Source: Candidatus Schekmanbacteria bacterium
GTDB lineage: Bacteria > CSSED10-310 > JACPHN01
DNA length: 64,000 nucleotides
Direction of reading: 5' to 3'
Assembly (NCBI GenBank): GCA_016188575.1
Contig: JACPHN010000269.1
Coordinates: 62,001 to 126,000, forward strand
Shown here: in pieces, positions 6,615 through 43,325 of the stretch
Numbering within the stretch: position 1 is the stretch's first letter
How the letters are laid out: every line of letters begins with the position of its first letter
The notes under the pieces: generated by a model
Database searches by the model: none
What the model was told of the DNA's origin: nothing
The model's input: only the letters and a program-made list of their open reading frames with translations
Made by a program: the position numbers and the translations under genes

Positions 6615-8033
6615 CTAGCCGCCGCCGGTGTCGCGCGGCGATGACGGCCCGAGCAGCTTGGCATGATAGTAGCGAAACTGGTGATAAGAAAGGCCGAGTC
6701 GCCGCGCTGCCGCCGCCTGGTTGTCACCGGACGCCCCGAGCGCTTCTCTCAGCATTCTCCTGGCATGCGTATCGAGCCGATCCTGGAAGGAACCGGCACC
6801 GCCGCCGGCGTCCTCTTCCTCCGCCAAAAGACCCAGATCTTGAGGCGTGATCTCTTGCGTCGTGTCGCGAAACGCAGCGCGCTCGATCAGGTTCTTTAGC
6901 TCGCGCACATTGCCTGGAAAGCTGTATCGCTCGAGAGTCTGCAGCGCGCTGGCGGACAGTCGCTTGCCGCTGAACGCTGGAATGTCCCGGGCAAAGGCAT
7001 CGAGAAAGTGATGCGCAAGCACGCCGATATCGCCGCTGCGCTGGCGAAGCGGGGGAACTTCGATGACCTCGAACGCCAGGCGATCAAGGAGATCCGGCAG
7101 AAACTTGCCCTCGCGAATCCTCACCTTCAAGTCCGCATTCGTGGCGGAGATAATCCGGGCGCGCGTGCACAGCTCGCGGGAGCCTCCGACTCGGCTGAAT
7201 GTGCCATATTCGACGACGCGCAGGATCTGCTGCTGAAACGCCAGGGACATGTGGGCGATCTCGTCCAGAAAGAGCGTACCGCCGTCAGCAAGCTCGAACT
7301 TTCCCGCGGCAGCCGCTTCGGCCCCGGTGAAGGCGCCTTTTTCGTGCCCGAATAGCTCGTTTTCGAGCAACGTGTCGGAAAATGCCGCGCAGTTCACCGT
7401 CACCATGTTGCCGGTGTCCGCACCGTTCAGCGCCGCGGTGTGGATCGCGCGCGCGACGAGCTCCTTTCCAGTGCCGCGTTCCCCAGTGATCAGAACGGGA
7501 CGGGGAATCTTGGCGACGCGGTCAATCTTGCCCACGAGCGCGGCGATTTCCGGCGACTCGCCAACAATGCGGAAGCGCGCCTGAAGCTTTCTACGTAGCA
7601 GCTCATTTTGTTGATCGAGCCGGCGATTGGTGTCTATCGCCGCGAACAGGGAGCTCAGTTTGCCTACGAGCGTCGCGGTGCGGGCTTCAAGTTGCTCGCC
7701 GAGCACCAAGAAATCCGTTGCGCCGGCCGCGATGCTGGCGGCGACGAGCTCGACGGTTCCCTCTTCGGCGGCGACCACGATGGGAGCAATCGCCAGCGCC
7801 TCGCGCATCCGGCGCACGAAATCCAGGCCGGCGTGGCTGTCAGCCGGTCCCGCGGCGGGTTCCAGGTATGCCACCACCAAGTGCACCGGGTGCCGCGCCG
7901 CGGCGTCAAGAACGTGCTGCACCTGCGTGGCCGGTCGGAAGTCCGTGTCTCTCGGCATGATCGCGCACAGGCACTGCGTGAGCGCCGTCAACCGCGGGGT
8001 CACGGAGTCCAAGACAAAGACACAACGAGGCAT
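6615..8033 (-). CDS. PspF-like sigma-54-dependent transcriptional activator
   Basis: 472 residues. The N-terminal 125 resemble a degenerate receiver (VFVLDSVTP at the start, no clear phospho-acceptor Asp). The AAA+ domain has Walker A GERGTGKE (184-191), the sigma-54 contact loop GAFTGA (233-238) and Walker B GGTLFLDEIA (251-260). The C-terminus carries a Fis-type helix-turn-helix whose end, RRLGLSYHQFRYYHAKL, is strikingly like that of the phage-shock activator PspF. I start it at the ATG at 8033; a frame extending to 8189 has no homology before this Met. It is divergent from the flotillin gene, whose upstream region holds a sigma-54 promoter and two direct repeats (8055-8088) likely to be its binding sites. 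The repeat nearest this gene would overlap its own promoter, hinting at autoregulation. Confidence 0.85.
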   Translation of the reverse strand: MPRCVFVLDSVTPRLTALTQCLCAIMPRDTDFRPATQVQHVLDAAARHPVHLVVAYLEPAAGPADSHAGLDFVRRMREALAIAPIVVAAEEGTVELVAASIAAGATDFLVLGEQLEARTATLVGKLSSLFAAIDTNRRLDQQNELLRRKLQARFRIVGESPEIAALVGKIDRVAKIPRPVLITGERGTGKELVARAIHTAALNGADTGNMVTVNCAAFSDTLLENELFGHEKGAFTGAEAAAAGKFELADGGTLFLDEIAHMSLAFQQQILRVVEYGTFSRVGGSRELCTRARIISATNADLKVRIREGKFLPDLLDRLAFEVIEVPPLRQRSGDIGVLAHHFLDAFARDIPAFSGKRLSASALQTLERYSFPGNVRELKNLIERAAFRDTTQEITPQDLGLLAEEEDAGGGAGSFQDRLDTHARRMLREALGASGDNQAAAARRLGLSYHQFRYYHAKLLGPSSPRDTGGG

Positions 8034-8054
8034 GGTCACAGCGTAGCAGCACCT

Positions 8055-8088
8055 GACGAATTTCACCAGGTATGATGATTTTCGCCAG
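8055..8088 (+). promoter_or_regulatory. candidate enhancer sites for the PspF-like activator
   Basis: Two direct repeats 19 bp apart, GACGAATTTCACCAG (8055-8069) and GATGATTTTCGCCAG (8074-8088), differing at four of 15 positions. They lie about 75-108 bp upstream of the -24 element at 8163, the normal distance for sigma-54 enhancers. Read on the minus strand, the first (TGGTGAAATTCGTC) resembles the core of E. coli PspF sites. Binding is inferred. Confidence 0.45.
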
Positions 8089-8162
8089 TCCGGCCGGTCG
8101 CAGTGTGCGTCGATAGTGCGACAGGTGAGCAACCGTGCGCGTTTGAAGTTGGCGCGCAGAAG

Positions 8163-8178
8163 TGGCCGGGTCGTTGCA
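8163..8178 (+). promoter_or_regulatory. sigma-54 (-24/-12) promoter of the flotillin gene
   Basis: TGGCCGGGTCGTTGCA fits TGGC-N7-TTGCW with exact spacing between the invariant GG and GC. Transcription should begin near 8190, about 77 bp before the ATG at 8267. A sigma-54 activator is encoded divergently next door, which makes a chance match less likely. Confidence 0.7.
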
Positions 8179-8266
8179 TGAGTTCGCATTGTCGTTCTGC
8201 GGCCGTCCGCAGATGGGCGCCAGCTCGCAGGGCGCCGCGAATAGCTACCAACAAGAGGAGAGCATC

Positions 8267-10575: not shown

Positions 10576-11256
10576 TCAGTCTCTGGTTACGGTGCAGCTC
10601 GTCACGGCAACGGTAAAGGTGTCTGAGTAGCTGCCATAGGAGACCGTTGCCTGTATCGTGCTGCCTCCGTTGAACGTGAGAGATACTTTCAGACCGGCCG
10701 CCGTTCGTGCGACTGCCCTTCCGCTTGTTGGCATGGCGCAAAGTTGCTTGGGCACGACGACATCATATAGAGTTGTCTGCAATGATACGCCATCCCATGT
10801 TCCATTGCTGTCTCCATTGACCGTAACAGAGCGAGATGATGCTTGCGTTCCTGTTATTGTGTACTGGAAAGATAACGTTACATCCGTTCCTGTACCAGAT
10901 CCTGTCGCCACAATCTTAACTGTCGTATTCGGATTATATATCGCTTGCTCATTGTTTGCATTGTCAAAATATCGTAGTGATACATTGACCGATACATTGT
11001 AAGACACTTTGAATGACGCGGAGTCCGCTTTTTCGCCCGATGCCGGCCGCGACACTGCCGCTGCTGCCAGGATCCCGTGGACAGTTTCAATGGTGTTCTG
11101 GGTCAGTTTCGTGGTCGCTCTCATCTCACCGGAGGTGATGCCATCTGGATCGGAGGTGCCCGAGCCGCTGAATGGGCAACCGAGCACGAATAGGCCCAGA
11201 AGCCCGACGACAACTTTGGCGGACGTGATGGAACGGAGGATGATCGTGCGCGACAT
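10576..11256 (-). CDS. hypothetical lipoprotein
   Basis: 226 residues with a leader ending in a lipobox (FVLGC, Cys27), so it is probably anchored in a membrane. The mature part is Thr/Ser/Val-rich with alternating beta-strand patterns (SFKVSYNVSVNVSLRYFD; TVKIVATGSGTGTDVTLSF; STIQATVSYGSYSDTFTVAV). Two Cys near the C-terminus (in KQLCAMP and TSCTV) could form a disulfide. I recognise no family. The coding sequence is visibly less GC-rich (about 10740-11010) than its neighbours, which may indicate transfer or relaxed codon selection. GGGAG precedes the ATG at 11256. It follows the giant sensor gene by 169 bp on the same strand but has its own candidate promoter. Its leader region resembles that of the lipoprotein at 45963-46682. 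Confidence 0.6.
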   Translation of the reverse strand: MSRTIILRSITSAKVVVGLLGLFVLGCPFSGSGTSDPDGITSGEMRATTKLTQNTIETVHGILAAAAVSRPASGEKADSASFKVSYNVSVNVSLRYFDNANNEQAIYNPNTTVKIVATGSGTGTDVTLSFQYTITGTQASSRSVTVNGDSNGTWDGVSLQTTLYDVVVPKQLCAMPTSGRAVARTAAGLKVSLTFNGGSTIQATVSYGSYSDTFTVAVTSCTVTRD

Positions 11257-11425: not shown

Positions 11426-14400
11426 CTAACCGAGGTCGTAGCGCGCCAGCTTGCGCCGGACGGTGGTGCTGTGATACCCCAGGTACTCGGCGATGGCGGG
11501 CTGATTGGCGGGCATGCGCTCAAGCAGCACCTTGAACATGAGGCATTCGCATAGCTCGATGGGGCTCAATACTCCGGGGTCGGCGTTTTCCGTGTCCAGG
11601 GATAGCAACTGCTCGAGGTGGCAAGCGAGCGGATGTCCGACGACGGCATCGCCGAGGCTCAGGTAGGCGCTGTCCGCGAGTCGCTTGCGGAGGGTCGGTC
11701 GGCTGAGGCCGAGGAGAGCGGCCGCGCGCGACAGGTTTCCCTCGCAAACCGCGAGCGCTTTACTGGTGAGATAGGCGGCGAGACAATCGACAGGTGATTC
11801 TGCTCCGGCGACGCCGCGCTCCCAGACGGCGTCAAGCCAGGCCGCGACCAGGTTGGAGGCTTGGGGTTCCGGCTCGCTCGCGCCGAATATCCGCGCCGGG
11901 TCGGGGTGTGCTTGCGGCGCCGCGGCGACAGCGACTGCTTCACCCGTGTTGCTGGCGGTCCGCCCGCCTGGCGGCGTTCGCCACGCGGTCGTGGGCGGCA
12001 GACCCGGCGCACCCGAAGAAGCCACGCCCATGCCGTTTGCCGCAGGCTCGAAAGTAGCGGCAGGCGGCGGGGCGGCGGGGCGCACCGTGATCTTCGCAAG
12101 ATCCAGCTCGAGATCCGCGGCCCGTAGCTCAGGCCCTTCACCGAGGAGGACAGCGCGCTGGATTCGGTTCTGGAGCTCCCGGATATTTCCGGGCCAGGGG
12201 TACAACGTCATCGCGCGTACTAGCCCGGCGTCGAAGGTGGGAACCTCTCTCCGCGCTTCGGAGGCAAACCGCTGGGCGAAGTGGCGCGCGAGCAGGAGAA
12301 CATCGTCTCCGCGTTCTCGCAGTGGCGGCACCTGGATGGGGATTACCGAGAGTCGGTAATAGAGATCCTCGCGGTAGGTGCCCGACTTTGCCATGGCAGC
12401 GAGATCGCGATGCGTGGCACCGACGAGCCGGAAGTCCACGGTGATGTCCTCGCGGCCGCCGACGCGGCGGATTGTCTTCACTTGCAGAACGCGCAGCAGC
12501 TTGACCTGCAAGGGCAGCGGCAATTCACCGACCTCGTCAAGCATGAGTGTCCCGCCCTCGGCTGCTTCGAACCGGCCGATGTGGCGCCGGCTTGCGCCGG
12601 TAAACGCCCCGGATTCATGTCCGAATAGCTCGCTTTCCAGGAGCGTTTCGGGAATTGCACCGCAGTCGACCACGACGAAAGGTCCACTGCGCCGGTCCGA
12701 GGTGTGGTGCAGGAGCCGGCAGATCTCCTCCTTGCCGGTGCCGCTTTCGCCCAGGACGAGCACGGTTGCGTCGGAATGCGCCACGCGCCGGACCATGTCG
12801 AAGACGCTGATCATCGAGGGGTGCGTGGCAATCAGTTTCAGCTCGCTGCCGATGAGCCGCTTCAGAGAAACGTTCTCCTCACGGAGGCGGCGCTCCTCTC
12901 TGACCCGGGCGACAACAGTCGATTCGATGATCTGGGCATGATCTATCGCGCGCCCGATTTGCGAGGCGACGATTTCCAGAAGCTCGAGCCCCTGTTCGCC
13001 GAGATCCAGCGCGCGCCGTCCCCCTTGCGTCGCCAGGTAGAAGACGCCGAGTAGCGAACGCTCATGGAGAATCGGCAACGCCAGCTCGCGGCAGGTTCCG
13101 AGGTCTGGACCTTGCTCGCGGCTCTGCGTGACTGTTCCATCCCAGAAGGCGGCCTGCTTGCTGGCCGCCGCTGCGAGCGCGAGGTCCGGGACGGTGCGGT
13201 CGTCATTGGGCTGCGGGCAATCGGGCCTTGAGTCCACCCACGCTACCAGCTTCAACGGCTGCTCCGCCACAAGGCGATACAGCGCCGCCCGGTCGCCGCG
13301 AGAGAAGTTCAGGAGGTCTTCGATGGCGCGCACGAGCGTCTCTTTGAGATCATCGAGCGACGAGACGTGTGCGAGCGCACCCCACATCTTGATAGCCGTT
13401 CGCAGCCCTCGCCCCTCCATCCACCCGAGGTGCGAAGACGCCATCGTGTCGCCATCGGTGGGTGAGCACAAGATTTCTGGCCGGCACCGCTCGACCCGAT
13501 TCCCGCCGGCGCGTTTCGCTGACTCCAGTGTCCGCAGCGCCGCGGCAAGCAGGGACTCGGGGCGAACGTCCTCGACGTCCGTGACGTCAACCACCGCGGC
13601 GCTAGCTGTCGTGAGTAGCACCGTGCCCGGATTGGTCGCGGCGAGGGCTTGCACGACCTCAGTGGCCTTGACCTCCACCTCGCTTCCGCTCACGCCGGCG
13701 GCCAGCACGGCGATAGTTGCGCCACCAAAGTGGCCGACGATCTCACCGGCGTTGAAGCGAGCGCGAATTACCCGAATGAATTCTGAAAGTATCGCATCAC
13801 CTTTTTCAAATCCGCGCTCACGGTTGAGCTCGCGCAGCCGGTCTACGGCAAACAGTGCCAGCGACACGGGGAAGGGATGCTTGCGGGCCGCGGCAAGATA
13901 ACGAGCAAGCAGGCGGAGAAGCCCATGGCGCGTAATGCCGCCGGTCAGCGAGTGGCCATCGGGCTTCGGCATCAGGTCGCGAAGGAACAGGAGGCATCCA
14001 AGCCTCCTTGCTACCCCACACAAGTCCCCGAGATCGGCTTCCGTAAGCGCCTTCCGTGGCACCCGGGTCTCGACGAGAATCCCACCGAGTGTGATCTCCG
14101 GCACGTGGGGGTTCGTGATTCCGGACGATCCGAGGGCGAGCCCAGACGGAGCCTGGATGGGGACCCACGCGAGGGATGAGATGTCGCTCGGCCAGGCCGC
14201 AGTGTCCGCTCGTAGCGCGGCGCCGAGCTCGGAGAGCTCGCGTGACGCCCACACGCGTGGTGCGTCGCAGAGGCCGAGATCATCGAACCTGCGCAGCACC
14301 GCTGTTGCGAGAGCGTTGCCGAGCGGAGCGGCACCGGCAATTTGCCAGGGTTCGCCATGATTGCCGCCGGCGTCTTCAAAAGCGACTGCGAATACCCCTT

Positions 14401-17041
14401 CGGAGGCCACGAGCTTGCGCGCTGCGTGGGAAACGCTGGCGAGGAAGCTATCGGAGGGCAGGGCGGCGGCGGAGAGGACCCGATCGAGCAGGCGGTGCCT
14501 CAACAGCGAGCGAACGCGCGCGGACAGCTCGCGTGGATCAAATGGCTTCGGGAGGTAATCGTCGGCGCCGCAGGAGAGCCCAAGCACGGCCCCCTCCGCG
14601 CCGGCTCGTGCCGTGAGCACAAGAACTGGAACGTGGCTTGTGGCCGCATCTGACTTGAGCTCGCGCACCAGCTCAAAGCCGGACTTCTTGGGCATCATCA
14701 CGTCGGTGACAATCAGGTCCGGATCCCCGGCTCTCGCCTTGGCGATTCCTTCGTCGCCGTCCTCGGCCAAAATAACCACATGATCCGGGCGGAGGATCTC
14801 CACGAGATAGGCGCGCATGTCCGGGCTGTCCTCGACTACGAGGATCGTAGCCGCCGTCTGCGACCCGCTTCCCGCGTCCAGGCGCCGGGTGTCGTCGGCG
14901 GCGCAAGAGGATTTCGCCGGCTCGGCGGCGACCATGGCGAGCTGCGGTGTGCCCAGCGTGCCCAGACAACCGGGGACCTCCACCCAGGCGCGACGAATCG
15001 GAATCGACACGCGGAAGGTCGTACCTGCACCGACAGTGCTCGCGACTTCGATCGCACCACCATGCAAGGCCACGATCTCTTTGGCCAGCGGCAGCCCCAG
15101 GCCCGTCCCGGATTGTGGCGTCCGAAAGCTCTCCGCTGCCAACCTGCGGGCGTAGCTGGCGGTCGATACTTGACGAAACGGTTGAAATAGGTGTGGAATT
15201 TCGTCTCCGGCGATGCCGCATCCGGTGTCCGTAACGGAAAAAACGAGATCGTCGCCATCCACGTGCACCGACAGCGTGATCTTGCCGCCGTCAGGAGTGA
15301 ACTTTATCGCATTACCGAGCAGATTCAGCAGCACCTGCCCGATCTTGTCGCCGTCAAAAACCATGGACGGCAGCGTGCTCGGCCCTTCATACTCCATGCG
15401 GATGTGGCAGGACTTTGCTGCCGGAGCGCCTTCTTCGACGACTTGTCGGGCGACGACGGCGGCGTCCCAGGCGGCGAGCTCGAGCGACATCTGGCGGGCT
15501 TCGACCTTGGCGAAATCAAGCAGGAGATTGACCTGACGAAGCAGTCTTCGCCCGTTTCTGATGGCCATCTCCAGCGCCTGGCGCCAGCCTGGCGGCGGCC
15601 CATCTTGCTCGAGAACCGAGGTGAGCGGCCCCAGCAGCAGCGTGAGTGGAGTACGAAGCTCGTGCGAAACGCGCGCGAAGAACGCGCTCTTTTCGCGGTC
15701 GACCCGCTGCAGCTCGGTGTTGGCGATCTCGAGCTCCCGCGTGCGATCGGCAACGCGGCGCTCGAGGTTGCGGCGCAGCGCATCGAGCTCTCCGAAAACG
15801 CGCGAGTAGCGATCGGCCAGGGTGACCGCCATGGCGACGAGGAGAACGCCGAAACCGACCGAGAGCAGGCGCGGCGTATCGAGCACATCGTGGTCCCGGA
15901 GAATATCGTTGGCGACCGCGATGGCGACGCCGCCGATGCCAATGGCAATCGTCGAGGCATCTGCATTGCCGCGCCAGGCCTCGCGGATGACCAGTGCCGG
16001 CACGAACACAATCTGGGGTAGAACGGCGAGCTCGAAGGCGGCCATGGCGGCGACACTGAGATGTAACCCGGGCCAGGCAGGGACAATGACCGCCAAGAGG
16101 ACGAAGGACATCTGGTAGGCGCGCAGCCCGCGGCTAATGCGCAAGCCCAGCATCGGAATGAGGAATTGCAGGACTATCGCCGGCATGGAGAACAGAAATA
16201 CGTAGTCTAGCTCCTTCATCAGTATGAAGTCGTCTGTTATACGATATTTCCACTGCGTCTGAACGAAGCTATACGCTGCCAGATTCATGGCGAATAGCCC
16301 GAACCAGAAGTAATCTTCTACCTGTCGCCTCCTTCTGTAGAGCTGGATCTGATAAAGGCCGGTGCAGAAGAATAGAGACGTCAGCAGGAGCTCGGTAATT
16401 TCCGAAAGAAGCTCGCGCCAGATCAAGGCGTCGATTGGCCCAATCGAGAATGGGCCTTCGAAGGGACCGGACTTGGCGGCGCGCTGCCCGGCCCACCGCC
16501 ACATGCGGATGGCGACAAGGACGCGGCCATCGTCCGGGATCGCCGCCCGGGGGAGCCGAAAAATCGCCCGGCGATCCCACTGCGGTTCGGCGTTCGGCGG
16601 CAGGCGACCGACTCCACCGAGCTTCAGTCCGCCGGCAAAGACCTCATAAGCGTCGCCGATTTTGCCCATGGCGAGACCGAGGTGGTCACCGCGGTCCGCG
16701 CGGTCACCGAGCGCCTCCGGAGCTAGCTGGACCTCACGTCGGTACCAGGCGATACCGGAATAGGCCCGCAGCTCATTCCACTCCCACGGCGCGGGAAGCT
16801 CTCTGAGGCGCCAGCCGCGATCATCGAAATCAGGTCGCGCCCAAGCCGCATCATCGCCGAGCTGGAAGTGCCAGGCTCCGGAAATGTCCGCGATTCGTTC
16901 CGCGGATGCTTCCGATTCCTGCCGTTCGCCTCCACAGCCTGCCAACAGCAGGAACGCCACTGCGGCGGCCGCCCGTGCTGCCCAGCCACACCCTCGCATG
17001 CGCGCCGCTGAAATCGATTTCGCTTCATGACTGCCGACCAT
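11426..17041 (-). CDS. giant membrane hybrid sensor kinase fused to a sigma-54 activator
   Basis: 1,871 residues in one open frame. Domain order: leader with lipobox (LLLAGC36); periplasmic jelly-roll like the sugar-binding domain of glycosidases (50-200); seven-helix 7TMR-DISM-type membrane part (210-410); coiled coil; HisKA with His460 (SHELRTPL); HATPase (N-box NLLGNAIKF 572-580, G2 GTGLGLPLAKE 645-655); receiver with Asp780 and Lys832; a GAF-like region (855-1025); a degenerate GGDEF-like domain (1035-1190, FGGAT at the active site); GAF (1215-1370); AAA+ with GESGTGKE 1431-1438 and GAFTGA 1478-1483; two Fis-type helix-turn-helices (1757-1790, 1845-1870). It could sense a periplasmic ligand and activate sigma-54 promoters without a separate regulator. 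The start may be 17041 or the Met codon at 16999, which gives a shorter lipoprotein leader. GTAACGCTGTTAC, a perfect inverted repeat, abuts the upstream start. Confidence 0.9.
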   Translation of the reverse strand: MVGSHEAKSISAARMRGCGWAARAAAAVAFLLLAGCGGERQESEASAERIADISGAWHFQLGDDAAWARPDFDDRGWRLRELPAPWEWNELRAYSGIAWYRREVQLAPEALGDRADRGDHLGLAMGKIGDAYEVFAGGLKLGGVGRLPPNAEPQWDRRAIFRLPRAAIPDDGRVLVAIRMWRWAGQRAAKSGPFEGPFSIGPIDALIWRELLSEITELLLTSLFFCTGLYQIQLYRRRRQVEDYFWFGLFAMNLAAYSFVQTQWKYRITDDFILMKELDYVFLFSMPAIVLQFLIPMLGLRISRGLRAYQMSFVLLAVIVPAWPGLHLSVAAMAAFELAVLPQIVFVPALVIREAWRGNADASTIAIGIGGVAIAVANDILRDHDVLDTPRLLSVGFGVLLVAMAVTLADRYSRVFGELDALRRNLERRVADRTRELEIANTELQRVDREKSAFFARVSHELRTPLTLLLGPLTSVLEQDGPPPGWRQALEMAIRNGRRLLRQVNLLLDFAKVEARQMSLELAAWDAAVVARQVVEEGAPAAKSCHIRMEYEGPSTLPSMVFDGDKIGQVLLNLLGNAIKFTPDGGKITLSVHVDGDDLVFSVTDTGCGIAGDEIPHLFQPFRQVSTASYARRLAAESFRTPQSGTGLGLPLAKEIVALHGGAIEVASTVGAGTTFRVSIPIRRAWVEVPGCLGTLGTPQLAMVAAEPAKSSCAADDTRRLDAGSGSQTAATILVVEDSPDMRAYLVEILRPDHVVILAEDGDEGIAKARAGDPDLIVTDVMMPKKSGFELVRELKSDAATSHVPVLVLTARAGAEGAVLGLSCGADDYLPKPFDPRELSARVRSLLRHRLLDRVLSAAALPSDSFLASVSHAARKLVASEGVFAVAFEDAGGNHGEPWQIAGAAPLGNALATAVLRRFDDLGLCDAPRVWASRELSELGAALRADTAAWPSDISSLAWVPIQAPSGLALGSSGITNPHVPEITLGGILVETRVPRKALTEADLGDLCGVARRLGCLLFLRDLMPKPDGHSLTGGITRHGLLRLLARYLAAARKHPFPVSLALFAVDRLRELNRERGFEKGDAILSEFIRVIRARFNAGEIVGHFGGATIAVLAAGVSGSEVEVKATEVVQALAATNPGTVLLTTASAAVVDVTDVEDVRPESLLAAALRTLESAKRAGGNRVERCRPEILCSPTDGDTMASSHLGWMEGRGLRTAIKMWGALAHVSSLDDLKETLVRAIEDLLNFSRGDRAALYRLVAEQPLKLVAWVDSRPDCPQPNDDRTVPDLALAAAASKQAAFWDGTVTQSREQGPDLGTCRELALPILHERSLLGVFYLATQGGRRALDLGEQGLELLEIVASQIGRAIDHAQIIESTVVARVREERRLREENVSLKRLIGSELKLIATHPSMISVFDMVRRVAHSDATVLVLGESGTGKEEICRLLHHTSDRRSGPFVVVDCGAIPETLLESELFGHESGAFTGASRRHIGRFEAAEGGTLMLDEVGELPLPLQVKLLRVLQVKTIRRVGGREDITVDFRLVGATHRDLAAMAKSGTYREDLYYRLSVIPIQVPPLRERGDDVLLLARHFAQRFASEARREVPTFDAGLVRAMTLYPWPGNIRELQNRIQRAVLLGEGPELRAADLELDLAKITVRPAAPPPAATFEPAANGMGVASSGAPGLPPTTAWRTPPGGRTASNTGEAVAVAAAPQAHPDPARIFGASEPEPQASNLVAAWLDAVWERGVAGAESPVDCLAAYLTSKALAVCEGNLSRAAALLGLSRPTLRKRLADSAYLSLGDAVVGHPLACHLEQLLSLDTENADPGVLSPIELCECLMFKVLLERMPANQPAIAEYLGYHSTTVRRKLARYDLG

Positions 17042-20076: not shown

Positions 20077-20298
20077 CACAGTCGTCCTGCGTCGGCTTCG
20101 GCGATATCGGCAACGACGGGGTTCTGACTGCTCACCGCGGCCGCGGCGAGCGCATTGCATCCACTCTCCGCGCTGCTCGCGCGGCGCGAGGCTTGACAGA
20201 GCTGGCAGCATCGCCGTAACAACAACACACTTTGGATGGCGTTGCGCGCTCCGGGCGGCAGATCATGGCGTCGGGTCGCGCGCAGCACAACCGCCGAA

Positions 20299-21462
20299 AT
20301 GGACCGAGGGCGCGTCGTGCGAAGACTGCGAATAGCGATAAACACGATGGCGGCGAACCCGTACCGCCGTCACGCGTGGCTCGAAGACTACCTCACGCTG
20401 ATGCGTGCGCTTGCACCGCTAGCGGTAAAAGAGCATTTTCTCTTGCTTACGGGTGAAGGCCAGGACGAGCAGGCCGGCGCGCTCCCACCCAATGTGGAGC
20501 TTCTCGCCGTGCCGCGCCTACACCGTCGGGGAGGGTGCCCCTTGCTGTTCGACGCCATGACGCTGCCCTCGATTATACGCGACCAGCGCATCGACGTCCT
20601 GCATACGAGCCACGTCGCGCCGTTGGCGGTGCGCTGCCGCCTGGTCGCGACCATGAGAACTCTGCACGCGTACACTGTCCCCGCGTTGCTCCCTCGGGGC
20701 GTCCGTGTCGCGCGGCGCCTGGCCACGCGCTGCGCGGTCCGGCGGGCCGACCTCGTGATCGCGCCGACCAGGGCGGCTCGCCGGGACATCGCGGAGCTGT
20801 TCGGCGTCGAGACAAGTCGCCTCCGGGTGGTTCCGGGAGCGGTCGACTGCGAGGTGTATCATCCGGCGGGCGATCGGGTTCAGCTTGTCAAGGTGCTCGA
20901 TCGCCTGGGTGTGAAGTCACCGTACGTTCTGTGCGTGTCTTCGCTATGGCGGTACAAGAATGTAGAGGACCTGATCCAAGCATTCTCTGTCGTGCGGCGC
21001 TATTACCCGGATTTCAAGCTGCTTGTAATCGGCTATGGGGCGGACGCCGCGTATCGCGCCGCGCTGGGTGATCGGGCGGCTGATCTCGGCCTGACGGGAT
21101 CCATCTCGTTTCGCGAGGCCGTGGACCGCGACGCCATGCCGTGGATCTATCGCGGCGCGCAGATGCTTGTCTATCCCTCTGAGGATGAGACGTTCGCGGC
21201 TCCGATCATCGAAGCCATGGCCTCGGGTTGTCCGGTAATCGCCACGGGCGTTCCGAGCCTGGTTGAAATCGCCGACGGGTGCGCCGTCCACTATCCCGCC
21301 CGGGACCTGGACGCGCTTACCAAGTGTATGCTGGATCTCATCCGTGAAGATGATCGCGCGCGCTTCATCGCGCGCTCCGGAGTCGCTCGTGCCAAGGACT
21401 TTTCCTGGCGGAACGCGGCCGAGCTCACGCTCGCCGCTTACCGTTTCGCGGCCGCCGGCTGA
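20299..21462 (+). CDS. GT4-family glycosyltransferase
   Basis: 387-residue cytoplasmic enzyme of the GT-B fold that transfers a sugar from a nucleotide donor. The C-terminal half has the hallmarks of family GT4: VLCVSSLWRYKNVEDLIQAF, a donor-binding EDETFAAPIIEAMASG segment (EX7E) and PVIATGVPSLVEI. The N-terminal half holds the acceptor Rossmann domain (LRIAINTMAANPYRRH; IDVLHTSHVAPL). The acceptor is unknown, and no other polysaccharide genes are adjacent. I use the ATG at 20299; the frame is open to 20236, so the N-terminus is uncertain by about 20 residues. It is followed after 30 bp by yjbQ on the same strand. Confidence 0.85.
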   Translation: MDRGRVVRRLRIAINTMAANPYRRHAWLEDYLTLMRALAPLAVKEHFLLLTGEGQDEQAGALPPNVELLAVPRLHRRGGCPLLFDAMTLPSIIRDQRIDVLHTSHVAPLAVRCRLVATMRTLHAYTVPALLPRGVRVARRLATRCAVRRADLVIAPTRAARRDIAELFGVETSRLRVVPGAVDCEVYHPAGDRVQLVKVLDRLGVKSPYVLCVSSLWRYKNVEDLIQAFSVVRRYYPDFKLLVIGYGADAAYRAALGDRAADLGLTGSISFREAVDRDAMPWIYRGAQMLVYPSEDETFAAPIIEAMASGCPVIATGVPSLVEIADGCAVHYPARDLDALTKCMLDLIREDDRARFIARSGVARAKDFSWRNAAELTLAAYRFAAAG

Positions 21463-37978: not shown

Positions 37979-38751
37979 GACCACTCGTTGCGCTCCTGAA
38001 CCCACCGCCGGCTCGACTCGTAGCGGCGCAGAAAGCGCACCTCGAAAACACCCCACCTCACCTCCCCCCGCAAGCGAGGGGAGGGACGGAGGGGGGCGCT
38101 GTCGGGTCGAAGTCGAACAGGTGGTGGATTCAGGCGCTCTTGACCGCCGCCGTCTTGCTGGCGACCGGTGCTGACCTCGATGCGGCAGAAAGGCTAGATC
38201 CATCGCAGGCGCCGTTGTTTCGCGCCTGGTTTGTGCGCATCGTGGCAGAGCAGGTCCGCCAGGGGCCTTCACCTCGCTGGGTCCACCGAGATTGCGCCGG
38301 CCTGGTGCGGTTCGCTGTAGCCGAGGCCCTACGGCCACATGGCCCGGCCTGGCAGCAGGCCTCCGGAGTCTCCGGGCATCTGCCGCAGGAGCTGACGCTA
38401 GCTCCAGATCAGCGGTCGCTGCGGAACAGTTGGCGCCAGGTGGACAAGAGCGTCGGGCCCTTTGTCTCGGCGCTCGCGCTTGTCCAGGAGAACACCGAGT
38501 TCGTATCGAAAGAGATTCAGCATGCGTTGCCCGGAGACCTCTTGTTCTTTGATCAGGGAGACGATCAACACGTGATGATCTGGATGGGAGATCACGTCGC
38601 CTATCACCGCGGCGAGGTAGCTCCGCGAGATAACGGCATGAGAACAGTTCGCATCGCCGCTTTGCTTGACTGGAAGGACACGCGATGGCAGCCCAGAGTA
38701 GAAAATCCCAACTTTGTGGGTATTTTTCGTTTCTTTTTCTTGTCGCGCTGA
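37975..38751 (+). CDS. DUF1175 protein (YfaT-like) with a repeat-derived N-terminus
   Basis: 258 residues from the GTG at 37975, which overlaps the DUF2138 stop. Residues 8-53 are encoded by dispersed repeat copy C and are low-complexity (LENTPPHLPPQARGGTEGG). A signal-peptide-like stretch follows (WWIQALLTAAVLLATGADLDA, here split, about 50-70). The DUF1175 domain proper includes FRAWFVRIVAEQV, RWVHRDCAGLVRFAVAEAL with a Cys reminiscent of NlpC/P60-type hydrolases, and HALPGDLLFFDQGDDQHVMIWMG with His residues. The catalytic arrangement Cys...His suggests a papain-like peptidase or amidase, but this is inference. Internal start codons are not obvious, so the repeat may really be translated or a TTG (38140) may be used. 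It overlaps the macroglobulin gene by 67 bases. Confidence 0.75.
   Translation: MRPLVALLNPPPARLVAAQKAHLENTPPHLPPQARGGTEGGAVGSKSNRWWIQALLTAAVLLATGADLDAAERLDPSQAPLFRAWFVRIVAEQVRQGPSPRWVHRDCAGLVRFAVAEALRPHGPAWQQASGVSGHLPQELTLAPDQRSLRNSWRQVDKSVGPFVSALALVQENTEFVSKEIQHALPGDLLFFDQGDDQHVMIWMGDHVAYHRGEVAPRDNGMRTVRIAALLDWKDTRWQPRVENPNFVGIFRFFFLSR
37996..38133 (+). repeat. dispersed palindromic repeat, copy C (complete)
   Basis: 138 bp, the best-preserved copy. The left end CTGAACCCACCGCCGGCTCG and the right end, whose complement reads CTGAATCCACCACCTGTTCG, form imperfect terminal inverted repeats. Between them lie GAAAGCGCACCTCGAAAACA, CCCCACCTCACC, the central hairpin around 38062-38083 and GGAGGGGGGCGCTGTCG. 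The frame of the DUF1175 gene stays open through all of it. Confidence 0.85.
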
Positions 38752-41700
38752 CCGCGGCAGGGCGCGCGGCTGATATCGAGCCCAGTGGCTATTCGCCGGA
38801 CCCGGGGGCGAAATTCTACTTGCTGGCGGATTCGGGGTTTTCGCCCGGAGAGATGGTAACGGTTCGCCTGGATGGGCCGCGCAGCGGGCCGGGCGCGTAT
38901 TCCGGTGTGGATATCATTATCTACCGTGTTCCTGAGCCCATGGCGTTTCTGAAGAAACAGCCCAACCTTCATCGGGTGAGAGTCGAGGGCCGGTTCACAG
39001 GCGAAGGGCTCGCGAATGCGTTGGAATATGTATGGGACTCCTGGTACAAGAAATCGCGCCTCTCCTGGCAGCGGTTGTTCACTGCGGACGCGCGAGCCAA
39101 AGTGGTGCGCCACGCACCCGAGCTCAAACAGACGCCGCCCTACACGTATCACACGCGGTTTGAGGACAATCCGCAGTTCGCACCCTTGCCTGGATTCGAG
39201 ATGGTGGCCCGCTTCCGCTACCCGTTCATGAACGCGGCGCCCCTCGATCCTGGCGATGGCACGGCGCTCGAGGGGAGCAGCAGCGAATTCACCGCGGCCC
39301 GCGCGGGCAATATCCGCCTGCCGCTCGGACTGCTGCCCGCCGGCCTCTACCTCGTGGAGGGCTACGTCGGCCCCTATCGGGCGACGACCTTGGTGTTCGT
39401 CTCGGATACCGTGGCGGTGACCAAGGTGTCGGGTAACCAGCTCATGGTGTGGACGGTGCACAAGAAGGATGGGCGGATCTTCGGCGGGGCCGAAGTGGCG
39501 CTCACGGACGCCACCGGCACGCTCGAGAGCGGTTCCACGGACAGCCATGGCGTGCTCGTCATCGAGCGCGAAAGCCCGGAGCGCACCTACGTCATCGGCG
39601 AGGATGAGGATGGCGGCATTTTCGTCTCAGAGAATTTCTATTACGACAGCGAAATCCACAAGACCAAACTCTACGTCTTCACCGACCGGCCTCTCTACCG
39701 CCCCGGGGATACGGTTCGGTTCAAGGTATTTGGACGCTATTTCCAGGATTCTCAGCATTCCACGCCAGCTTCATCCGAGATCGCTCGGGTGACCGCTCTC
39801 GATCCCAATGGCAATCCCGTCAGCGCGCTGGAAGTTTCGTTCGCCTCACAAGTCGGCGGAGACGGTGCCTTTGAGCTCCCGGACCAGTCCATCGCCGGCG
39901 GGTACACGCTACTGCTCGTGCACGCCGCCGAAGTCTATACCGCGTCCTTTCGCGTCGCGCACTTCGCCAAGCCTCATCACGACCTCGACATTGTCATGGA
40001 CAACGCCGCGTTCACGACGGAGCAGCCGGCTACGGGCCACGTGCGCCTGTCGTATCCCGATGGACAACCGGTCCAGCACGCCAGCATCGAGCTTGAGCTG
40101 CGCGCCCAGAAGCTCTCCATGGTCGAGCAGGAAGTGCGCTACATGGGGCGTTTCCCCGTCGCACTCCTGACGGCAGAGCTCGCCACCGGCGAGGACGGGC
40201 AGGTGGCGTTCACCTTGCCCCCGGCTCACGAGCCATCGCGTTACATTCTGAGAGTGATCGCATCGGACGGCGGGCCGCAACGAGTCACGGCGAATCATGA
40301 GATCGTAATCTCAGCCGGCCACCCGCTGTATGTGGTCACGGCGGCGCAGCACCTGACCCGTCCGGGTGAGGAGGCCGCATTCACGGTGCGACCGCTGGCG
40401 GGTCCGGCCGCGCGGCCGGCCCGCTGGGCGGCGACCCGGCTCGAAGATCGCAGCCGCGTGGACGGGCCGCTCGCCGGCGGAGACTCGTTTGCGGTGCGGT
40501 TCGCTCAGCCAGGCGCTTACACGGTAGTGGTCATCGATGAAAATGGTCTGGAAGTCGGATCCACACCGCACTTCGTGGAGGGGCCGGGCCTCGCGGCGCC
40601 GGCGGGCAGTGTCACCATCTTGCTCGATCAGGACGAGTATCGGCGCGGCGACGCCGTCAAGGCTCTCATCGCCTTCCCGGAACCAGTCGACGAAGCTCTC
40701 ATCACTCTGGAGCGCGATCGGGTTCACGACTACGCGACGCTGTCCCGGGGAGCGAGCTGGCTTCGCCTGGCGCGGCTGAATCCGCTCCAATGGCGCGCCG
40801 AGATTCCGGTGACGGAGGCGTTCTCGCCAAATCTGACCTTGTCGGTGCTGTTCGTCAGGAATGGCGTCTGCTCTTTTCAGAACAAGGGCATCAGGGTGCG
40901 GGTACCCCGGATAGGCATCGCCATGACGCCGGACAAGGAACGGTATGCGCCGGGTGACGTGGTGACCGTCGCGGTGCTCACTACCGTGGACGGCGAGCCC
41001 ACCTCCACCGATTTCGCCGTGAGCGTCGTCGACGAAATGGTCTACGTTCTGCAACCGGAGCTCGCGCCGAACATCTCCGACTTTTTTCATCACCCGCGAC
41101 GCAATCAGGTGCGAACGACCTCGACTCTCGACTTCTTTACGTTTGACGGAGCGTCGCCCCAGGGCACCGGCGAACCCCCCGCCAGCACGGGTGCGGGGCG
41201 CTCCTACAAGGTGCTGGAGCGGCCCAGGCGGGACAACATCGACACCGCCGCGTGGTTTCCTCGCCTGAAGACTGACGCGACGGGCCGCGGCCAGTTTCAC
41301 TTCACCATGCCGGATGCCATCGCGCGGTGGCGGATGACGGCGCGGGCCATCACGACCGCTGGCCAGGTAGGGCAGGACGAAGCCTACATCATGTCCGTGA
41401 AGGAGGCGTACCTCAAGTGGACGGGACCCACGGCGTTTCGCCAAGGAGACGTCATTCGGGGCATGATGCTCGGTTTCAACCTGGGAGCGGAGCCGCGCGC
41501 GCTGACGCTCGAGCTTTCAGGCATGGGCATCAGCACTTCCAGAGAAATCACCCTGCAACCGGGTGCGAATTATCTGGAGGTTCCACTGGAGCTTCATGAG
41601 AGCGGGCTTCTGCGCAGCCGCTTGCTGGGCGCCGGCAGCGAGCTGGACCAGTTGGAGACGCCGATTGCCGTCGCGCCCGTGGGCTGGCAAACCCGCCGCA

Positions 41701-43325
41701 GCCGCAATCTCGAGCTGACGGCTGCGCACACGGCGCTGGACCTACCGCGCGATGCCCGAAACGTGCGACTGGCGACCATGGCCCCAGGAGCCGGTGCCTT
41801 CCTCCGTGTCGCCGACGAGTTATTGGACTACCCATACGGCTGCGTGGAGCAAGTGGCCAGTCGGCTCCTCCCCCTGAGTCTGGTTTTTCGCCACGTTGAG
41901 GACCTGAACCTGTCGGCGGATACCACCGCAAAGCTGCGCGGTGTCCTGAGCAACCAACGCCTGCGGCTGGCGCGCATGGCCGGACCAGGTGCCGATTTCG
42001 GCTGGTGGGGTGACTTGACCGGGGGTGATCCGTTCTTCACGGCCTATGCCTATCTCGCCGACAGATTCGCGCTGGCGGCGCTCGGCATCCAGGCCGCGCC
42101 TGCCCACTGGGAGCATCTGCTCGAGGTGTATCGCCAGGCGAGCACCGCCGATAGCGTCACGCAGCGGGCCGCGACCGTGTGGCTCGCCAGCGAGCTGAAG
42201 CTGCCGACGCGCACGCTGGTTGAAGGCGTGGCTGCGGACCTGGCTCGCCTGGAGGGTGGTGCGAATGCCGCGAGCTCCTTCCCTGCGGGGCACAGTCGGC
42301 TGCTTGACCAGGATACGGAGGATCCGGCGCTGGCCTGGGCGTTCCTGGGCCTGGCTTCCGCCGGCGATGACGTGAGCAGGGAGATGGCTGAGCGGGCGTT
42401 GAACGCGGCGCAAGAGCTCGCCCAGGCCGCCGATCCGCTGCCGCGCGCGCTCGCCCTGGTGATCCGGCTGAGACTCGGCGACCGGGCGGCCGGTTCCGGG
42501 GCGGCGGCACACGAAGATGCGGCTGCCTTGTTGGAGAGCGTCGCCGGCGAGGTCCCGACAATCGACCGGGCGCTGACCTTGGTGCTCCTGAATGAAGCTG
42601 TGACCCCCGCCGCCGAGTCGCCCAAGCCGCTGGACCTCGCGCCTGCCGGCCCGTGGGAGCGGCGAGAGGACCGCTTTGGACGCGCGACCTGGCACCATGA
42701 GGGAGACGCCCACGCGTCGTTGGCCATCGACCTGCAGCGCGCTCCCGCAGCGCCGATCCCCGTGGTCGTCACCTTCGATGCGTTCACGGATACCGGCGAA
42801 GAGGCTGCCGGTCAGGGAGTACGCCTGCGGCGGCGGCTGTATCGACTGGAAGCAGAGCCGACGCAAGTCGACCCGGACTACCTGGCGGAGCAGCCTGTCG
42901 AATGGCTGTATCAGGCAACCCCGGTGCGCCCGGGTGAAGTCATCAGCAGCACGGTCACGTACGTGGACGAGGTGAGACTGTTGCCCACCACGGAGAGCTC
43001 GCAGCGCTTCTCGCTTCTCGAAGTTCCCTTGCCGCCTGGCGCCGATCTCGAACCCGTGCCCTGGGGATCGGCATTTAGCGGCATCGATGGGGTCTCGGAG
43101 AGCGCGCCGCCCGAGCAGCTCAATCAGGGCGCGAGCGTTGCCGGCGGCTACGCGGTGCCGGTCCGTGTTCTCGAGTCAGGGACAGAGCTCACAGCGCTAC
43201 AGCTTGTCCGTTTTTCCCAGGAGGGGACCTTTCAATTGCCCGCCATGCGGTTCTTCCCGATGTACCGGCCAGGAGCAATTGTCTGGAGCAAAGACACTTC
43301 CTGGCGGAGCATGGTGGTGCGGTGA
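38685..43325 (+). CDS. bacterial alpha-2-macroglobulin (YfaS/MagD-like)
   Basis: 1,546 residues, secreted (signal about 9-28, FSFLFLVALTAAGRA; no lipobox). Macroglobulin-like beta domains fill the first half, e.g. KTKLYVFTDRPLYRPGDTVRFKVFGR (about 326-351, two adjacent blocks). The bait-like variable region lies around 820-850, then the conserved A2M block AAWFPRLKTDATGRGQFHF and WRMTARAIT. The thioester motif GCVEQ is intact with Cys1053, followed by a helical thioester domain (about 1050-1330) and a receptor-binding-like C-terminal part. Such proteins trap attacking proteases in the periplasm. Some operon-type homologues are reported to lack the thioester, so its presence here is notable. 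It begins inside the DUF1175 gene and overlaps the DUF2300 gene by four bases (GTGA). Confidence 0.92.
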   Translation: MAAQSRKSQLCGYFSFLFLVALTAAGRAADIEPSGYSPDPGAKFYLLADSGFSPGEMVTVRLDGPRSGPGAYSGVDIIIYRVPEPMAFLKKQPNLHRVRVEGRFTGEGLANALEYVWDSWYKKSRLSWQRLFTADARAKVVRHAPELKQTPPYTYHTRFEDNPQFAPLPGFEMVARFRYPFMNAAPLDPGDGTALEGSSSEFTAARAGNIRLPLGLLPAGLYLVEGYVGPYRATTLVFVSDTVAVTKVSGNQLMVWTVHKKDGRIFGGAEVALTDATGTLESGSTDSHGVLVIERESPERTYVIGEDEDGGIFVSENFYYDSEIHKTKLYVFTDRPLYRPGDTVRFKVFGRYFQDSQHSTPASSEIARVTALDPNGNPVSALEVSFASQVGGDGAFELPDQSIAGGYTLLLVHAAEVYTASFRVAHFAKPHHDLDIVMDNAAFTTEQPATGHVRLSYPDGQPVQHASIELELRAQKLSMVEQEVRYMGRFPVALLTAELATGEDGQVAFTLPPAHEPSRYILRVIASDGGPQRVTANHEIVISAGHPLYVVTAAQHLTRPGEEAAFTVRPLAGPAARPARWAATRLEDRSRVDGPLAGGDSFAVRFAQPGAYTVVVIDENGLEVGSTPHFVEGPGLAAPAGSVTILLDQDEYRRGDAVKALIAFPEPVDEALITLERDRVHDYATLSRGASWLRLARLNPLQWRAEIPVTEAFSPNLTLSVLFVRNGVCSFQNKGIRVRVPRIGIAMTPDKERYAPGDVVTVAVLTTVDGEPTSTDFAVSVVDEMVYVLQPELAPNISDFFHHPRRNQVRTTSTLDFFTFDGASPQGTGEPPASTGAGRSYKVLERPRRDNIDTAAWFPRLKTDATGRGQFHFTMPDAIARWRMTARAITTAGQVGQDEAYIMSVKEAYLKWTGPTAFRQGDVIRGMMLGFNLGAEPRALTLELSGMGISTSREITLQPGANYLEVPLELHESGLLRSRLLGAGSELDQLETPIAVAPVGWQTRRSRNLELTAAHTALDLPRDARNVRLATMAPGAGAFLRVADELLDYPYGCVEQVASRLLPLSLVFRHVEDLNLSADTTAKLRGVLSNQRLRLARMAGPGADFGWWGDLTGGDPFFTAYAYLADRFALAALGIQAAPAHWEHLLEVYRQASTADSVTQRAATVWLASELKLPTRTLVEGVAADLARLEGGANAASSFPAGHSRLLDQDTEDPALAWAFLGLASAGDDVSREMAERALNAAQELAQAADPLPRALALVIRLRLGDRAAGSGAAAHEDAAALLESVAGEVPTIDRALTLVLLNEAVTPAAESPKPLDLAPAGPWERREDRFGRATWHHEGDAHASLAIDLQRAPAAPIPVVVTFDAFTDTGEEAAGQGVRLRRRLYRLEAEPTQVDPDYLAEQPVEWLYQATPVRPGEVISSTVTYVDEVRLLPTTESSQRFSLLEVPLPPGADLEPVPWGSAFSGIDGVSESAPPEQLNQGASVAGGYAVPVRVLESGTELTALQLVRFSQEGTFQLPAMRFFPMYRPGAIVWSKDTSWRSMVVR

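Follow-up and report, generated by a model that had tools for sequence, protein, structure and literature searches.

The window analysed here, a stretch of 64,000 nucleotides, carries on its reverse strand a gene that runs from ATG to stop as a single frame of 1,871 codons with no internal stops; in the alternative frames of this strand, stops number 38 and 41. Along the encoded protein, Pfam domains were found in the order 7TMR-DISM_7TM, HisKA, HATPase_c, Response_reg, GGDEF, GAF_2, Sigma54_activat, AAA_lid and HTH_8, that is, a membrane sensor kinase with a receiver followed on the same chain by a sigma-54 activator (Table 1). The initial annotation had proposed an unbroken chain from sensor to activator with a jelly-roll sensor followed by a 7TM part, His460 and Asp780 as key residues, an intact GAFTGA loop and a degenerate GGDEF domain; these readings held, the first through the frame and the ordered Pfam domains, the second through a PDB profile match and Pfam, and the others through motif reading.

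Table 1. Coordinates of the fused gene, its domains and the split pair of the same genome (window positions unless prefixed; residues are those of the fused protein)
Feature	Position	Strand	Basis
Whole gene, fused sensor kinase - sigma-54 activator, 1,871 aa	11426..17041	-	Frame, Pfam, same-genome homology
Signal sequence ending in lipobox-like LLAGC (Cys36)	16934..16999	-	Sequence, paralogue comparison
Periplasmic jelly-roll sensor, GH2/sialate-acetylesterase type, residues 50-207	16421..16894	-	Alignment, PDB profile match
7TMR-DISM_7TM, residues 216-411	15809..16396	-	Pfam 1.3e-14, 55 bits vs cut-off 29
HisKA, residues 451-515, phospho-acceptor His460	15497..15691	-	Pfam, motif reading
HATPase_c, residues 563-683	14993..15355	-	Pfam, motif reading
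Receiver (Response_reg), residues 733-844, Asp780	14510..14845	-	Pfam, motif reading
Fusion junction, residues 851-858, receiver helix end meets activator homology start	14468..14491	-	Homology, composition, alignment
GAF-like domain 1, residues 859-1022	13976..14467	-	Homology to split activators only
Degenerate GGDEF, residues 1032-1182, GGATI replaces GGDEF	13496..13948	-	Pfam, alignment, motif reading
GAF domain 2 (GAF_2), residues 1231-1367	12941..13351	-	Pfam
Sigma-54 AAA+ core (Sigma54_activat), residues 1404-1570, GAFTGA 1478	12332..12832	-	Pfam 4.5e-66, PDB, motifs
AAA+ lid (AAA_lid), residues 1575-1650	12092..12319	-	Pfam
Fis-type HTH 1, residues 1761-1789	11675..11761	-	Pfam, C-terminus search
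Fis-type HTH 2, residues 1828-1870	11432..11560	-	Alignment, C-terminus search
C177 pair, activator and kinase	L029:4523-10970		
C177 kinase	L029:7623-10970		

The extracytoplasmic N-terminal domain and the 7TMR-DISM_7TM match above its curated cut-off place the front of the protein among the 7TMR-DISM receptors. The jelly-roll itself gave no Pfam match above cut-off, and a profile built from five homologues matched the PDB entries 7kmm (8.8e-17) and 5uj6 (5.4e-11), solved jelly-rolls of the GH2 beta-galactosidase and sialate O-acetylesterase kinds; on the strength of these matches one may reasonably guess at a carbohydrate-type ligand. Translation could alternatively begin at Met15. The lipobox-like Cys36 lies ahead of the 7TM receptor, and an N-terminal lipid anchor would be an uncommon feature in a polytopic receptor; at this position the closest two kinase paralogues carry LSAC (contig C177) and ASGC (C60).

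The H, N, G1 and G2 boxes of the kinase and the acid pocket, Thr and Lys of the receiver are intact, and with HisKA, HATPase and receiver domains and their catalytic residues all on one chain this part is a hybrid histidine kinase. In the activator half, the first GAF-like domain (about 859-1022) had no Pfam match, and the signature of an active diguanylate cyclase, GG(D/E)EF, was absent here and degenerate also in the separately encoded activators of the same genome. The AAA+ motifs are intact (GESGTGKE at 1431, GAFTGA at 1478, GGTLMLDE at 1496 and REDLYYRL at 1557, covering Walker A/B, the loop and the arginine-finger region), and together with the Fis-type domain they are those of a sigma-54 enhancer-binding protein; the closest AAA+ structures in the PDB belong to the NtrC family. 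The genome also encodes rpoN. Against the model for the PEP-CTERM response regulator PrsR (TIGR02915) the protein scored 396 bits, below the curated cut-off of 502.6. When the C-terminus was searched alone, HTH_8 was found in two stretches (2.6e-14) and HTH_23 stood at its cut-off, which supports a second DNA-binding unit; the single-sequence structure prediction of this region had a pLDDT of 45 and was set aside. All five activators align across both C-terminal segments, with not each HTH detected in each.

Immediately downstream on the same strand lies a gene for a 226-residue putative lipoprotein with no Pfam match (10576-11256), a possible target or operon partner of the fused gene. Another sigma-54 activator with an intact GAFTGA motif is encoded 3 kb away (6615-8189, reverse strand), and its N-terminal part is receiver-like, though unrecognised by Pfam. 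Besides, the forward strand encodes a bacterial alpha-2-macroglobulin-like protein of 1,546 residues with MG2, bait region and A2M (38685-43325).

Both halves of the fused protein align end to end with proteins that the same genome encodes separately. Contig C177 carries an activator of 1,035 aa and a 7TMR-DISM hybrid kinase of 1,115 aa, whose genes overlap by 8 bases in one operon; the kinase is 45% identical to residues 24-860 of the fused protein, and the activator, built as GAF-GGDEF-GAF-AAA+-HTH-HTH, is 39% identical to residues 857-1865. A stand-alone activator on C143 with no adjoining kinase is 43% identical to residues 855-1867. Over 914-980 aligned residues, the split activators of C177, C143, C62 and C98 are 31-41% identical to the fused gene and share with it the GAF-like, degenerate GGDEF, GAF and AAA+ domains and one or two C-terminal HTHs, but unlike it they are soluble and have neither kinase nor receiver. 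Two HTH_8 stretches also occur in the C177 activator; the paired DNA-binding units singled out by the initial annotation are therefore a trait of the split activators and not of the fusion. Because both halves have separate counterparts, because GC by codon position is even along the gene, including residues 820-980 across the junction, and because the alternative frames are full of stops, a chance open frame can be ruled out.

A search of this genome for 7TMR-DISM_7TM returned four proteins, each of which adjoins a sigma-54 activator or is fused with one, and further histidine kinases adjoin sigma-54 activators, for example on C21, C141, C147, C160, C161 and C264. A relative in genome G002 (L197) has no sigma-54 activator within the 12 kb examined. 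On C150 and C179 the 7TMR-DISM kinase is followed directly by a sigma-54 activator, in both cases of another type. As kinase precedes activator in the fused gene and at these two loci, and the order is the opposite on C177, the fusion probably descends from a kinase-activator operon and not from the C177 arrangement, to judge from gene order.

Whether two separate genes had been joined by an assembly or sequencing error had to be weighed, since the gene is a single copy in one draft metagenome-type assembly of 275 contigs and since the C60 kinase paralogue lacks an internal segment at an 11-base repeat, a gap that might be an assembly misjoin too. Homology, GC, alignment and motifs gave no hint of a false join at the junction. 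The two halves meet in frame and at a domain boundary, where in the alignment the last helix of the receiver passes into the first GAF-like domain with no intergenic remnant; codon composition is continuous, and codon usage is similar on both sides. The contig is at least 126 kb long, of which at least 62 kb lie to the left of the window, and neither of its ends is near the gene. Collapse of the C177 pair could not have yielded the order seen in the fusion, and collapse of near-identical repeats is contradicted by the nearest paralogues being only 39-45% identical. An artefact is thus highly improbable, and the fusion is probably real. In the C60 paralogue (L036:3054-4981) neither the 7TM part nor the phospho-acceptor His is present. 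Its join sits on the repeat CTGCTCGGCCC, of which the C177 paralogue has a copy at each of the two places, and its phosphatase part lies in another frame; it is a decayed copy or an assembly error.

The initial annotation had presented the architecture as unfamiliar, and no second example or large family with the same domain order emerged from surveys with the full-length protein, a composite query, the 7TMR-DISM domain and long sigma-54 proteins. In 193 genomes searched with the full-length query, the other places above threshold were kinase-only or AAA+-only, and no orthologue was found in seven other genomes of the phylum. The composite HisKA-HATPase-REC-AAA+ query was run against 195 genomes of one phylum, 290 across bacteria and 249 of another phylum (734 genome searches over partly overlapping sets), with the best three to five candidates scored per genome and 150 matches listed per search; a fusion interrupted by large extra domains would appear there as two separate matches, so coverage is good and not exhaustive. 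Among the matches listed, only the fused gene had kinase and AAA+ in a single frame, and every other kinase-to-AAA+ span crossed at least one stop, as two adjacent genes do. Four matches whose frames ran to about 1,350 aa were considered as fusions and rejected, direct reading giving two genes with a stop between them. The 7TMR-DISM survey of 290 genomes gave 59 matches above cut-off, the longest frame being that of the fused gene (1,874) and the next that of its own paralogue (1,132 aa). Apart from the fused protein, none of the long sigma-54 proteins tested (903-1,786 aa) had a histidine kinase. A tblastn search against plasmids gave no record with 80% query cover, the best records having kinase and activator annotated as a pair of genes, and a scan of genome contigs, in which a receiver motif brought up chiefly hybrid kinases from Bacteroidota and elsewhere, gave no fusion. 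Of the 37 activators in Desulfovibrio vulgaris, 22 are response regulators, and neither kinase nor receiver domains occur in the remaining 15 (PMC4641369). The literature search, partial in coverage so that an earlier report is possible, found no fusion of a histidine kinase to a sigma-54 AAA+ domain and no precedent for a membrane-tethered hexameric AAA+ activator.

The nearest functional parallel is the hybrid two-component system (HTCS) of Bacteroides, in which a single chain holds the sensor kinase, the receiver and the DNA-binding domain and an inhibitory contact between receiver and DNA-binding domain must keep the tethered dimer silent (PMC11253607). Like BT4124 and BT4663 (PMC11253607), the fused protein carries a membrane sensor, histidine kinase, receiver and DNA-binding part on one chain, and it faces the same problem of remaining silent before stimulus. 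Its sensor, a GH2-type jelly-roll with 7TMR-DISM, is unlike that of HTCS, and its output is GAF/GGDEF-like/GAF, sigma-54 AAA+ and two Fis HTHs in place of the AraC type; by Pfam no AraC HTH is present. No linked polysaccharide-utilisation locus was recognised among the ten neighbouring genes scanned, of which the only carbohydrate-related ones encode a CBM9/DUF5916 protein (399-2702) and a glycosyltransferase (20236-21462). By analogy, therefore, the protein resembles HTCS in its way of working while standing outside that family. Of the view that DNA binding from the membrane is notable here, tethering as such proved to be precedented by these systems (PMC11253607), and what is new is the sigma-54 AAA+ output.

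With NtrC-family regulators of the NtrB/NtrC, AtoS/AtoC and ZraS/ZraR kind, the proposed mechanism shares His-Asp phosphotransfer to a sigma-54 AAA+/Fis activator, but in those systems kinase and activator are made as two proteins, with AAA+ following immediately after the receiver. The 7TMR-DISM hybrid kinases of C177 and of G002 (L038) have sensor, 7TM, HisKA, HATPase and receiver in the same order as the fused gene, to which they are 45% and 33% identical; the former ends in a SpoIIE/PP2C phosphatase after the receiver, the latter stops after the receiver, and both lack a DNA-binding output. As the continuation of the C177 kinase into a phosphatase shows, outputs can be swapped behind the receiver within this family. 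Two of the long sigma-54 proteins, of the Ser/Thr kinase-TPR-GAF-sigma-54 type, likewise unite kinase and activator on one extended chain, one in the same genome (C162, L107:4201-8793, 1,530 residues) and one at L106:4683-10043 (1,786 residues); unlike the fused protein, these have a Pkinase-type Ser/Thr kinase and no histidine kinase, receiver or 7TMR-DISM.

We consider it likely that the gene is a natural in-frame fusion which has given rise to a single-chain, membrane-anchored two-component system with sigma-54 output. A periplasmic carbohydrate-like ligand would bind the GH2-type jelly-roll, the 7TMR-DISM part would relay the signal to the kinase dimer, and phosphate would pass from His460 to Asp780 on the same chain or within the dimer. 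The receiver would then free the AAA+ domain through the coiled linker and the stack of GAF, degenerate GGDEF and GAF domains, which may bind a cytoplasmic ligand too. Three tethered dimers would assemble the AAA+ ring, the two Fis-type HTHs of each chain would bind upstream sites, and a sigma-54 promoter would be opened through looping of DNA to the membrane. Chances look about even that tethered dimers of this polytopic receptor make up the enhancer-binding ring themselves and, while anchored in the membrane, remodel sigma-54 RNA polymerase, in a lineage where the halves are otherwise encoded by separate genes. Scans for sigma-54 promoters near the gene stayed at background level and gave no convincing promoter and hence no target gene.

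The span of about 560 residues between receiver and AAA+ makes their coupling non-standard, unlike that in NtrC. This distance, and the fact that the split activators of C177, C143 and C98 are regulated without a receiver of their own and hence without its direct control, would also suit a real fusion in which the receiver for the most part drains off phosphate or acts in trans, the GAF/GGDEF-like domains control the activator and the membrane part only localises it. We regard this as quite improbable, because the active sites of kinase and receiver are fully intact and all four 7TMR-DISM proteins of the genome are paired with an activator, which together suggest functional coupling. Alternatively, the activator half of a real fused gene could be freed by proteolysis or an internal start and act as a soluble sigma-54 activator, as its split relatives are soluble and a ring-forming AAA+ activator that loops DNA would work more simply in solution. 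The post-receiver linker and the proline/alanine-rich stretch 1660-1730 could be cleavable, but no cleavage site was recognisable, the long linker from AAA+ to HTH occurs in the split activators as well, and no in-frame start codon with a ribosome-binding site was found near the junction, so that release of the activator appears improbable.

If the membrane-anchored reading is correct, a hexameric, DNA-looping AAA+ enhancer-binding ring can work while tethered, one molecule should both detect the signal and, still at the membrane, activate genes, and the outputs of hybrid two-component systems extend beyond the AraC type. Its split relatives, unfused versions of one circuit encoded by the same genome, provide a ready control and open the benefit of tethering (insulation, fixed stoichiometry, signal integration) to direct test. 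Apart from these, the C177 kinase, in which the receiver is followed by the SpoIIE-type phosphatase, may drive both sigma-54 and partner-switching outputs.
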